Position numbers and translations under genes: made by a program
Notes under the pieces: generated by a model
Told to the model about the DNA's origin: nothing
What the model saw: the letters and a program-made list of their open reading frames with translations, nothing else
The model's database searches: none
Part shown: piece after piece, positions 3,730 to 22,010 of the stretch
Position numbering within the stretch: position 1 is the first letter of the stretch
Layout: each line of letters begins with the position of its first letter
From: a virus
IMG/VR virus record: IMGVR_UViG_3300020034_000070
Span: 1 to 22,846 of that record
Length of the DNA: 22,846 nt
Reading direction: 5' to 3' (one strand)

Positions 3730-4755
3730 CTACTGCCACCCCGTCAGGTAATTCCCGCGTGGACGGCGACCCGAGCCCGGCATCCCGGCATCGGCGGTGC
3801 TGAACCGTGGCGTGCGGTCGTTGTTCTTGGCGATGCGGGCGCGCGCGGCGCGTGCGGACGTCTCCACGTGCGCCGGAATCTCGGCGCCGAACGGCGCGGC
3901 GATCTCCTCCGCCAAGGTCAAGATGATCGCGTCGAGATAGCCCGGCGGCAGCGTCACCGTGTCGACGAGCGTCACCTGGCTGAGCACGCTCCGCGTGAGC
4001 AGCTCCACGCTCGCCGCGCTCGCGGGCACCGGGTAGAAATAGAGCTCCCCGTTCGGCCACGTCGGGTTATAGAAGACGCCCTGCGCGATCGTCGACGTCA
4101 GACTCGGCAGGCTGAGGCCGTTGTAGTCCTCCACGGACAGCACGTCGATCGGGACGCGCACGCCGCCGCTGAGGAGGAGACTCGCCGCCTCGATCGACAC
4201 GGGCCGCTGCGCCGTGGTGAAGGACGCCCCGCTCGGGCCGATGGTGTGCGGCGAGAGACTCGGCACCAGCGTGAACGTCTGAAACTGGACGCTGTAGATC
4301 GCGGCCTGGTCGGCGTTCCAGTTGTCGATGAGGCGATTGAGCTTCCCGAGGATGAGCGCCCCGTCGTCGGCGTCGGGCACTTCCCCCTTCATGAAGAGGC
4401 TGAGCTCCTGGCCCGCGGCGAGACAGATCGCGAGCACGGAGACCGCCTCTTCATGAAGGGAGGCGATGAGCGTGGCCTGCTGCGCGAGGGTGATCGTCGG
4501 GTACTGAATCGTCGTCGGGATCGCGCCGGTGCCGATGAAGGTAAAGTCGCACTTGGCGCCGTCGGTCTCCTGCAGACTGGGCCGATAGCTGAATAACCCG
4601 TTGCCCTCCGACGTGCAGAGACCCGAGCCCACGGAGCCGATCGCCTGCGTCCCCGCGTCGAGGGTCACATACACCGTCACGGTGCCGCTGAAGGCGGCGC
4701 CCGTCGCGTTGAGCATTTGGGCCGAGACGCTCTGGCCGGCCTGGGCGCGAATCAC
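3730..4755 (-). CDS. P22 gp4-like tail accessory factor with extra N-terminal beta domain
   Basis: 341 residues from GTG 4753-4755, which overlaps the preceding stop as GTGA; the frame is open further upstream, but that part lies in another gene. Residues about 1-88 look like a small beta (Ig-like) domain (AGQSVSAQMLNATG, GTVTVYVTLDAG, FTFIGTGAIP), a type I associate with stand-alone structural genes. From about residue 115 it reads as a gp4-type head-completion protein: KLNRLIDNWNADQAAIYS, a segment with TIGPSG and RPVSIEAA, then NGELYFYPVPA and LPPGYLDAIILTLAEEIAAPFG. It ends in a basic helix (ARAARARIAKNN) with a Gly/Arg tail. In P22 this ring extends the portal after packaging. A 16-bp perfect inverted repeat lies at the domain junction. 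Confidence 0.75.
   Translation of the reverse strand: MIRAQAGQSVSAQMLNATGAAFSGTVTVYVTLDAGTQAIGSVGSGLCTSEGNGLFSYRPSLQETDGAKCDFTFIGTGAIPTTIQYPTITLAQQATLIASLHEEAVSVLAICLAAGQELSLFMKGEVPDADDGALILGKLNRLIDNWNADQAAIYSVQFQTFTLVPSLSPHTIGPSGASFTTAQRPVSIEAASLLLSGGVRVPIDVLSVEDYNGLSLPSLTSTIAQGVFYNPTWPNGELYFYPVPASAASVELLTRSVLSQVTLVDTVTLPPGYLDAIILTLAEEIAAPFGAEIPAHVETSARAARARIAKNNDRTPRFSTADAGMPGSGRRPRGNYLTGWQ
4385..4460. repeat. Perfect 16-bp inverted repeat with 44-bp spacer inside the gp4-like gene
   Basis: Arms are 4385-4400 (CCCTTCATGAAGAGGC) and 4445-4460, its exact reverse complement. Each arm contains the 10-bp palindrome CTTCATGAAG. Pairing stops at both ends of the arms. In the gp4-like protein the arms encode the flanks LHEEA and LFMKG of a 25-residue segment. 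Flipping the 44-bp spacer would keep the frame open and change only the residues between the arms. Confidence 0.85.
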
Positions 4756-6815: not shown

Positions 6816-7568
6816 CTATGCGGCCTTCGCCACAGACGCCGGTACGAAGAGGCGGTCGCGCTTCACGAACGTGGCCGGCTGCCGACGCCGCTGCTGCTGG
6901 TAGTAGTAGTGCGGGAGCGCCCCGCCGCCGCCGCCGCCGCCCGTCGCCGCCTTGAACGTGACAAACGCCGTCGCCGACCCATCGTTGCCACCCGTGTTGG
7001 CCGATCGCGTCGCACCCGAGAGCACGCCGGGGTTCTCGCTGTGTCCGGCCACGTCGCCGCCGTCCTCCAAGTAGTCCTGCGTCATGCCCGACGGCGTCGC
7101 GATCGAGGCCGTCCAGCAGGTGGTCCCCTCGAGAAGCAGGTCTTCGGCTCCCGAGGTAATCGCCGCCCCCGTCGTCCACGCCACGCCGCCGCCAAAGGAC
7201 ACGGCATTGATCCCGGCGTCGGTTTCCGGCGTGGTGAGGTCGCAATTGACCAACCGATCGATCTCCCCGGCGTCAATGTCGCGCCCCGTGACCGGCGTGA
7301 TCGTGTAGGTCGAGGGCTCACCGGCCGCGGAGGTGATGACCTTCCGGAAGAACGAGACCCCGTAGGAGTAGGTCTTCACGGCGTCGTACCAGCTGATACT
7401 CCCGACGTCGACAAACGAGTGCGACAGTGTCGGGAAGACCAGATGCTGATCCCCGGCGCAGAACCAGTGATAGCGCACCACCAGCACCGACCCATCGACG
7501 ACGCCCGAGGGCTTCGTCACCGTGGTCGAACTGATCGCCACGCTCGACCCGATGACGCAATTCGCCAT
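6816..7568 (-). CDS. Phage minor structural protein with glycine hinge and basic tail
   Basis: 250 residues, starting in a TAATG overlap with the GH16 gene. Residues 1-205 are beta-rich and resemble the single-domain appendage proteins often next to phage fibres (VIGSSVAISSTTVTKPSG, DGSVLVVRYHWF, SGATRSANTGGNDGSATAFVTFKA). A run of seven glycines (about 209-216) links this to an unusual C-terminus, ALPHYYYQQQRRRQPATF, with aromatic, glutamine and arginine runs. The glycine run is coded by a GCC triplet repeat on the plus strand (about 6921-6942). The role is inferred from neighbours: perhaps an adaptor anchoring the GH16 protein or the following fibre. No enzyme motif is seen. Confidence 0.65.
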   Translation of the reverse strand: MANCVIGSSVAISSTTVTKPSGVVDGSVLVVRYHWFCAGDQHLVFPTLSHSFVDVGSISWYDAVKTYSYGVSFFRKVITSAAGEPSTYTITPVTGRDIDAGEIDRLVNCDLTTPETDAGINAVSFGGGVAWTTGAAITSGAEDLLLEGTTCWTASIATPSGMTQDYLEDGGDVAGHSENPGVLSGATRSANTGGNDGSATAFVTFKAATGGGGGGGALPHYYYQQQRRRQPATFVKRDRLFVPASVAKAA

Positions 7569-8359
7569 TACTGCGTCACCCGCACGTAATCCACCTGAAA
7601 CGTTTGGGGAAACGTGCTCGAATCCGGCGTACCGCCCCCGATGCCGCCGATCGCGGCGTTGAGAATCAGATACATCGCGACGTTCGGCACGGACGCGCCG
7701 CTCAGCGAACTCAGCGTCTGAAATCCGCCCCCGTCTTCAGGATCCACCGACCAGATCATCGACCCCGCGGCCCATTGCAGCCGGTAGACCATGAAGCGCG
7801 AGGTCGCGTTGAACGGCATGGTCTGAATGCCCGGCCCGACGTTCGCGCTCTCGAAATGCACCTGGTTATTCACCGTGGTGCGCGAGCCACTCATGAACTC
7901 CGCGATGTCCACTTCGCACCAGCCCGCGTGCGGCCAGTTATGGCCGGGTGTATTCGCCGTGAAGGGCTGACTGGCCTGCCACTCAAACCCCAGCATCCAG
8001 ATGCACGGCCAGATGCCCGTGCCGCCCGGAATCTTCGCGCGCACTTCCACCGTGCCATACAAGAACGGCGTGGTCTTCTGTTGGATATGCCAGGACGTGT
8101 AGTGCTCGGTGACCGCGCCTTGCTCAGAGTCTCCGCAGCTGTGATCCTCGAACGTCGACACGCCTGAGAGCAGACCGCCCGCGACACTCACGTTCGCCGC
8201 GAGACAGCAATTCACTTCGCCGTTGACCTGGTCCGAGATGCGCTCGACGACGTCCCACTTCGCCGCGTCCACCGACGACCCGGGAAAGTCATCGAAGAAG
8301 AGGGGCGCGTCCGGCTCAGGGTCCGCCCGCACGAATCGGAGCGCACTCCCGCGAGCCAT
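7568..8359 (-). CDS. Glycoside hydrolase family 16 (beta-glucanase/agarase-type)
   Basis: 263 residues, about the size of one GH16 catalytic domain, with no signal peptide. The signature active site E-x-D-x-x-E is intact at residues 149-154 (GWCEVDIAEFM): E149 would be the nucleophile, D151 the helper and E154 the acid/base. Other family features are FFDDFPGSSVDAAKWDV near the N-terminus, the strand YGTVEVRAKIPGGTGIWPCIWMLG, and the final strand FQVDYVRVTQ. GH16 enzymes cleave beta-1,3/1,4 glucans, agars, carrageenans and related polysaccharides; which one cannot be told. It sits between head-spike-like and fibre-like genes, so it is probably a virion-borne depolymerase, although soluble release at lysis is possible. 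Confidence 0.88.
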   Translation of the reverse strand: MARGSALRFVRADPEPDAPLFFDDFPGSSVDAAKWDVVERISDQVNGEVNCCLAANVSVAGGLLSGVSTFEDHSCGDSEQGAVTEHYTSWHIQQKTTPFLYGTVEVRAKIPGGTGIWPCIWMLGFEWQASQPFTANTPGHNWPHAGWCEVDIAEFMSGSRTTVNNQVHFESANVGPGIQTMPFNATSRFMVYRLQWAAGSMIWSVDPEDGGGFQTLSSLSGASVPNVAMYLILNAAIGGIGGGTPDSSTFPQTFQVDYVRVTQ

Positions 8360-18272: not shown

Positions 18273-18662
18273 TTAGGGCAGGACGGTCAGATCAGGGCGT
18301 GTCGACACGCCACGGACGATCGGCAGGACGACCGGCAGCACCGGGGCCCGGGTCACGTGCAGCTGGAGGATGAGGCCGAAGGGGTACAACAGCCGGTTGA
18401 GCGTCGAGAGCTTTGGATCGACGCGCCCACATTCGATGGCCGTGACGGCGTGGCGATCGAGGCCGGCCAGGTCCGCGAGCTGCTCCTGCGTCCAGCCGAG
18501 GCGCTCGCGAATGCGGAAGAGCATCGCGCCAAACCGCGTGGTTTGCGCCTCCTGGAGGATCTGGAGGTCGGGGTTGTCGTCGGCCAGGCGACGACGATCA
18601 GGGGCACTCGCCGGGCGGGGGCGACGACGATCGGCCAACCGCACCTGTTCCACGGGGTCCAC
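18273..18662 (-). CDS. XRE-family transcriptional regulator
   Basis: 129 residues from GTG 18660-18662, though other GTG starts within the first codons are possible. An Arg/Pro/Asp-rich N-terminus precedes a canonical HTH_3 domain at about residues 44-100: GAMLFRIRERLGWTQEQLADLAGLDRHAVTAIECGRVDPKLSTLNRL, seen in parts. The turn AGLDRHAVTAIE is where the recognition helix begins. The length and C-terminal hydrophobic tail resemble small phage repressors or antitoxin-type regulators. A perfect 10-bp inverted repeat lies about 50 bp upstream and is a probable autoregulatory operator. The neighbouring genes do not look like a toxin. Confidence 0.85.
   Translation of the reverse strand: MDPVEQVRLADRRRPRPASAPDRRRLADDNPDLQILQEAQTTRFGAMLFRIRERLGWTQEQLADLAGLDRHAVTAIECGRVDPKLSTLNRLLYPFGLILQLHVTRAPVLPVVLPIVRGVSTRPDLTVLP
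18296..18311. promoter_or_regulatory. 16-bp palindrome in the XRE gene
   Basis: GGCGTGTCGACACGCC is a perfect 16-bp palindrome near the 3' end of the XRE coding sequence. Its core GTGTCGACAC recurs at 17360-17369 ahead of the terminase genes. It could be a binding site; chance in GC-rich coding DNA is not excluded. Confidence 0.35.
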
Positions 18663-20992: not shown

Positions 20993-21286
20993 TCACATGA
21001 GTCCTTTGCGCACCAGCCGCTCTGTCGCCGCCTGCAGGCTCACCGGATCGTCGGGGTCGTATTCCTCAATGCCGGTGGCCATCGCGCGCACGTTGGCCGG
21101 CAGGACGCTCCCCGTCGGCATGAGCACGAGGATCGGTTTATCGAGGTAGACCGCGAGCCCCAGCTGAATGATCGGGATCACCTCGTCGACCATCCGCTCG
21201 TTCCACAACAGGCAGAACCCCCGGCTGCCGCTGAGGCCTTCGAAGGTGCGGCGGGTCGCCTCGCGCAGCGCCTTGTCGATTTTCAC
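20993..21286 (-). CDS. Nucleoside deoxyribosyltransferase-fold-like phage protein
   Basis: 97 residues from GTG 21284-21286 (GTGA overlap). The middle reads RGFCLLWNERMVDEVIPIIQLGLAVYLDKPILVLMPTG, seen in parts, followed by LPANVRAMATGIEEYD. This pattern, helix then G-x-A-x-x-x-DKPI-strand, resembles the part of nucleoside 2-deoxyribosyltransferase-like folds that carries the catalytic glutamate in E-x-G-x-A. Here a glutamine (IIQLGLA) stands where that glutamate would be, so catalysis is doubtful and nucleotide binding is more likely. The family resemblance is a hypothesis. Confidence 0.55.
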   Translation of the reverse strand: MKIDKALREATRRTFEGLSGSRGFCLLWNERMVDEVIPIIQLGLAVYLDKPILVLMPTGSVLPANVRAMATGIEEYDPDDPVSLQAATERLVRKGLM

Positions 21287-21771
21287 AACTGCTCCAAATC
21301 CTTCCGTCGATACCGCCGTCCCCGCTGTTTCACCTCGCCGGCTTTGACCGCCTGCCGCAGCTGCCCGTACGACACGCCCGCGATCGCGAGCGCCTCGGCC
21401 TTGTCCACGTAGGCCGGATCTGGCGCACCTGTCACACCGTCTGTCGCACCTGTCGCACCGTGCCGGAGCATCGCGCGGAGCTCGTGGAGCACCTCTCGGA
21501 GCAGCACACCGCCCGGCGTCGGTTCGTGCCGCTGATGCGCGATCGCGTGCGAGCCGTTCCCATTCGAGGTCTGACCGGCCGCCAAAACGCCCGTCCTGAC
21601 GGTCTGGCGTCTCGCCTCGGCCTCGATCGCCACGCCGACGGGGTCATACCGCGTCGGGAATCCCGGCCGCGCCTCGCAGTCAATCTTGCGGGACCGCACC
21701 AACCGCTGCAGCGTGCGTTTGTCGCAGCCGATCTGCGCGACCGCCTCCTGCCAGGTCAGCCCGCCGGTCAT
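21283..21771 (-). CDS. Two-domain helix-turn-helix DNA-binding protein
   Basis: 162 residues from ATG 21769-21771 (ATGA overlap). An N-terminal HTH (LTWQEAVAQIGCDKRTLQRLVRSRKI, residues 5-30, in parts) is followed by a linker. A second HTH of excisionase style sits at about 121-162 (YVDKAEALAIAGVSYGQLRQ, then KAGEVKQRGRRYRRKDLEQL). The linker contains GATGATDGVTGAPD (about 106-119), coded by copies of a nonamer that also lies just upstream of the start. This may be the site the protein binds, which would make it autoregulatory. Confidence 0.75.
   Translation of the reverse strand: MTGGLTWQEAVAQIGCDKRTLQRLVRSRKIDCEARPGFPTRYDPVGVAIEAEARRQTVRTGVLAAGQTSNGNGSHAIAHQRHEPTPGGVLLREVLHELRAMLRHGATGATDGVTGAPDPAYVDKAEALAIAGVSYGQLRQAVKAGEVKQRGRRYRRKDLEQL
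21421..21459 (+). repeat. Nonamer cluster within the HTH gene
   Basis: The plus strand holds TGGCGCACC (21421-21429), TGTCACACC (21430-21438), TGTCGCACC (21442-21450) and TGTCGCACC (21451-21459). The consensus TGTCRCACC is in opposite orientation to the cluster at 21772-21814. It codes the GAT-GAT-D-GVT-GAP linker. Confidence 0.75.
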
Positions 21772-22010
21772 GGTGTGACACCGCGACCGGTGCGACAGCG
21801 CGATCGGTGCGACATGTCACACGTTCCACGTGGCACACTCACGCCGAGGCCGACACGCTCGCGCGCCTCGTTGATCACCAACTGCACGAGCGGTCCGGGC
21901 GCTGTGGTCCGCACTCGCAGCGCGGCCGTCATTCGCGCGAGCGACGCCGTCCATCCGGTGAAGGCGGGGCGCACCCCGCGATTTGCGTAGTGGATCCAAT
22001 ACACCGTCAT
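21768..22010 (-). CDS. Small phage protein of unknown function
   Basis: 80 residues from ATG 22008-22010, overlapping the membrane peptide gene as ATGA and the HTH gene as ATGA. It begins MTVYWIHYANRG and contains a helical middle (PGPLVQLVINEARERVGLG). The last 15 residues (Arg/Ser/Cys/Thr) are dictated by the nonamer repeats beneath. A longer upstream frame is a shadow of the membrane gene. No family recognised. Confidence 0.6.
   Translation of the reverse strand: MTVYWIHYANRGVRPAFTGWTASLARMTAALRVRTTAPGPLVQLVINEARERVGLGVSVPRGTCDMSHRSRCRTGRGVTP
21772..21823 (-). promoter_or_regulatory. Nonamer repeats upstream of the HTH gene
   Basis: GGTGTGACA (21772-21780), GGTGCGACA (21789-21797) and GGTGCGACA (21806-21814) are spaced exactly 17 bp apart; the last two extend to CGAYCGGTGCGACA. 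A facing TGTCACAC (21815-21822) forms a perfect 8-bp inverted repeat with 21773-21780. The array ends at the HTH start codon, as an operator or iteron array would. Confidence 0.6.

Follow-up and report, generated by a model that had tools for sequence, protein, structure and literature searches.

A perfect 16-bp inverted repeat inside the gp4-like adaptor gene of a P22-type phage and its possible origin by template switching

The adaptor gene and its N-terminal beta domain

The window, meaning the whole stretch of DNA that was analysed, was an entire IMG/VR record of 22,846 bases from a P22-type phage. Its structural genes and the features of the inverted repeat are listed in table 1. A glycoside hydrolase family 16 domain was located at 7568-8359, amid the structural genes (PF00722, E=3e-11), and two helix-turn-helix proteins were encoded at 18273-18662 and 21283-21771 (HTH_31/HTH_3 and HTH_17).

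By its homology to tail accessory and adaptor proteins and its position before the gp10-like gene, the gene bearing the repeat is a P22 gp4-like adaptor. It matched phrog_12985 (E=2e-30) and, in tblastn searches, phage genes annotated as 'tail accessory factor' or 'tail adaptor'. The open reading frame was listed from 4803; the likelier start is the GTG at 4755, which is preceded by an SD-like GGGAG and overlaps the upstream stop in a GTGA, and adaptor residues are numbered from this GTG. The AlphaFold model of the adaptor had a mean pLDDT of 72 and a pTM of 0.44, and its best PDB matches were portal-tail adaptor proteins, mostly from short-tailed phages, at modest TM-scores.

The N-terminal beta domain gave no match in Pfam and no convincing match in PHROGs, and a separate beta-domain gene was looked for among the genes upstream in relatives and not found there. 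The domain was joined to gp4-like proteins in L023, L024, L028, L029, L030 and other loci; in L025-L027 it was present with no gp4 part matched downstream and with other sequence in that place. These arrangements suggest that the beta domain is a mobile structural module. A fusion scar peculiar to this phage was ruled out, since the beta-domain fusion occurs in many contigs. In L053, L054/L057 and L056 (records G006, G008 and G005), a second beta-domain match was seen just upstream of the first, which suggests a tandem duplication of the domain.

Table 1. Coordinates and assignments of the structural genes and repeat features.
Feature	Position	Strand	Assignment
gp4-like head-to-tail adaptor gene with N-terminal beta domain	3730..4755	minus	341 aa; homology and gene order
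N-terminal beta domain	4462..4755	minus	98 aa; 50-67% identity to the same domain of other viral contigs
Left arm (5' in mRNA)	4445..4460	minus	codes SLHEEA; linker between beta domain and adaptor
Spacer, 44 nt	4401..4444	minus	most of adaptor helix 1 (VSVLAICLAAGQELS)
Right arm (3')	4385..4400	minus	codes LFMKG, directly after adaptor helix 1
gp10-like stabilisation gene	directly after adaptor gene	minus	PF11134
Portal gene		minus	PF16510
Coat gene		minus	PF11651

The inverted repeat and its relation to the adaptor family

The perfect inverted repeat described in the initial annotation was confirmed. Its arms, CCCTTCATGAAGAGGC (right) and GCCTCTTCATGAAGGG (left), are complementary at 16 of 16 positions, and, as had been stated, each contains CTTCATGAAG, which is self-complementary. 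It was the longest perfect short-range repeat of the window and the only one of at least 13 bp with a spacer of at most 100 nt; the runner-up within the same spacer limit measured 12 bp. Arms of at least 16 bp were obtained in 2 of 300 dinucleotide shuffles, with an analytic expectation of 0.003 per window. When codons of the main genes (14.2 kb) were shuffled synonymously, arms of at least 16 bp appeared in 0 of 2000 shuffles and arms of at least 14 bp in 24 of 2000. Chance alone would give a repeat of such length in about 0.1-0.7% of windows like this one, and the longest such repeat in Bxb1 (50 kb), the single outside genome used as a real background, was 12 bp. The repeat is unusual for a single window, yet expected somewhere across many windows. 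Paired operator sites were considered and rejected: TTCATGAA occurs twice in the window, and these two occurrences are the arms themselves, within a structural gene.

Relatives were gathered with the beta domain alone (seven contigs), with the fusion alignment (21 loci) and by whole-record searches (three more fused genes). After removal of duplicates, 13 distinct fused viral-contig genes were aligned, and ten were kept for column scores once near-duplicates had been removed. Between the beta domain and the end of the spacer, 11 of the 13 had the same length as the window gene and aligned without gaps, with the spacer in its native orientation; the other two (L053 and L056) were without the ten-residue linker, which includes the left-arm segment. 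The tail accessory and adaptor proteins of cultured phages also aligned across the spacer, whose residues VSVLAICLAAGQELS match the family helix (e.g. IVSNLLIAAMRRIN). Against a profile of the relatives, built with the window left out, the native region scored 52 bits and the flipped region 32, the match of the latter splitting in two around the missing helix. AlphaFold placed a helix at residues 107-117, at the spacer, with a mean pLDDT of 85 for residues 111-120. On the alignment, the profile scores and this helix, the spacer fits gp4 and the fusion with the beta domain is a trait of the family; the earlier view of the spacer as foreign to the usual gp4 N-terminus was wrong, the segment being adaptor helix 1.

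The repeat itself was not shared. At the homologous place, the longest repeat among the 13 fused genes was 9 bp, and the two arm sites of the relatives were complementary at 1-7 of 16 positions, where chance gives about 4.5. Since this is the chance level, no ancestral partial repeat is seen in the relatives.

Origin of the repeat and alternative readings

The best reading, to which we give a probability of roughly one half (about 0.52), is that the repeat lies in coding DNA without a demonstrated function and arose by base changes in place through template switching. During replication, a weak partial repeat already in place would have let the growing strand fold back, with the right arm, a normal adaptor sequence, serving as template for the left arm, which lies in a tolerant linker; a template switch of this kind would render both arms exact by neither insertion nor inversion. 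Four observations stand behind it: the repeat is present here, relatives do not have it, the family aligns without gaps, and the spacer lies in its native orientation. Because length is unchanged against the relatives, the arms are taken to have arisen by substitutions in place. With the nearest full-length relative (L024) at about 50% protein identity, there is no before-and-after pair, and it is put forward as probable from the sequences that copying was the cause and that the right arm was its template.

The left arm is probably the template-switch copy, of the quasipalindrome type, because it is part of a variable linker, its codons are rare and it deviates from the family, and the right arm looks native. 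Compared with other five-codon windows, its codons TCC CTT CAT GAA GAG rank in the lowest 2% (the rarest 2-4% of windows of the same size); CTT supplies 5 of the 366 Leu codons. At linker positions where relatives mostly have Gly, Ser, Thr or Ala, the left arm encodes Leu-His-Glu-Glu. Among four-codon windows, the right-arm codons CTC TTC ATG AAG belong to the 2% that are most typical, and the arm is a moderate fit to the family at the positions preceding a conserved E. These codon and linker arguments were made post hoc. The initial annotation had listed the scar of a foldback or template-switch event among its options; this stands as the leading reading, held with moderate confidence, in the form of a replacement that would have left length unaltered with respect to 11 of the 13 relatives. 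Template switching has been reported to homogenize short repeat arms in coding DNA of yeast, in one case up to 16 bp (PMC8604942), and quasipalindrome correction is given as the cause of an excess of short perfect repeats in van Noort 2003, as that work is cited in PMC6649704 (it is also listed in PMC10434271).

A coincidence, in which independent coding sequences happen to complement each other with the help of the self-complementary CTTCATGAAG in each, is tentatively kept as the second candidate. At 0.003-0.007 expected per window, such a repeat will be present somewhere among thousands of windows; the arm sites of relatives pair no better than chance; and the 16-mer alone was found in five other, unrelated viral contigs, with no partner arm and no gp4-like gene in the stretch examined. 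Against coincidence stand the 2000 synonymous shuffles, none of which reached such arms, and the oddity of the left arm in both codons and residues.

The stable mRNA hairpin raised in the initial annotation exists on paper, the sense RNA of the repeat having a minimum free energy of -55.9 kcal/mol (z -6), and is absent from all relatives, so that a conserved RNA function is unlikely. A functional hairpin at the domain boundary would slow translation or shield an internal start at GTG 4437, before which AAGAGGCGG is found, and we consider it improbable. The position of gp4 residue 1 maps near 4446-4437, in keeping with that proposal. Of 3000 synonymous recodings, 3 folded as strongly, but this restates the repeat. 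It is further opposed by other stretches of the window that fold equally strongly, the repeat hairpin ranking ninth among 1896 overlapping windows. An intrinsic terminator was rejected, as a T run is missing downstream: the sense strand continues with GGGGGAAGTGCCC, and the other strand is also without a T run.

Two further observations concern folding and translation signals. The strongest folds of the window lie on the minus strand at 971-1186 and 21719-21814, reach -60.9 kcal/mol per 96 nt and exceed the repeat hairpin. At 4435-4452, spanning left arm and spacer, AAGAGGCGG-TCTCC-GTG resembles a ribosome site followed by a start, near the place where gp4 begins in unfused relatives; GTG 4437, with AAGAGGCGG upstream, may be an internal start.

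A tiny invertible segment yielding two variants of the adaptor, as had been suggested, is very improbable and found no support in the family, where the native orientation prevails throughout. The arms are indeed perfect, and flipping the spacer does keep the frame open and turns AVSVLAICLAAGQELS into AELLARGETDREHGDR. Open frames are normal here, though: among 44-nt flips in the genes of this phage, 73% left the frame open overall and 94% did so in the same codon phase, and an open frame after the flip is therefore almost no evidence of inversion. The flipped peptide destroys helix 1, at a cost of 20 bits against the family. When viral contigs were scanned for the core arm pair 30-60 nt apart, with the spacer in either orientation, no contig matched. 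The window proteins that were searched against Pfam included no recombinase, which is weak evidence because the record may be a genome fragment. A loop of 44 bp is very short for recombinase binding. An inverton was accordingly rejected, given that the second orientation was not found in contigs, a recombinase was not found and the flip breaks the family helix. It is just as hard to credit that the 44-nt spacer inverts rarely by strand switching during replication, which would provide the phage population with occasional variants of the adaptor.

Significance and comparison with known systems

By itself the repeat has little significance. The case indicates that, for GC-rich phages, a perfect repeat with an open flipped frame is weak evidence of a protein switch. 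It also indicates that the question of orientation is cheaply settled by aligning distant relatives. If its origin by template switching were proven with a close relative, the repeat would be a single phage instance of a mutation process for which most examples come from bacteria and yeast.

Like P22 gp4-like adaptors, the window gene stands before a gp10-like gene, has the conserved helical start and is homologous to tail accessory factors; it differs from them in the added N-terminal beta domain, which is common to a group of uncultivated phages. Intragenic invertons, as described for Chanin 2024 where it is cited in PMC11868660, likewise have inverted repeats inside a gene and a frame that is open both ways. 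The window repeat departs from them in that no flipped form was seen in contigs, no recombinase was found among the scanned window proteins and the 44-nt spacer is the native family helix. Compared with template-switch repeats, which come from yeast or cellular genomes (PMC8604942; van Noort 2003 as cited in PMC6649704), the window repeat lies in a phage, has a spacer that is not inverted and is known without an imperfect ancestral form. It shares with them short perfect arms around a short spacer in a coding gene and one arm that departs from the family, and its length is unchanged against 11 of the 13 fused relatives.
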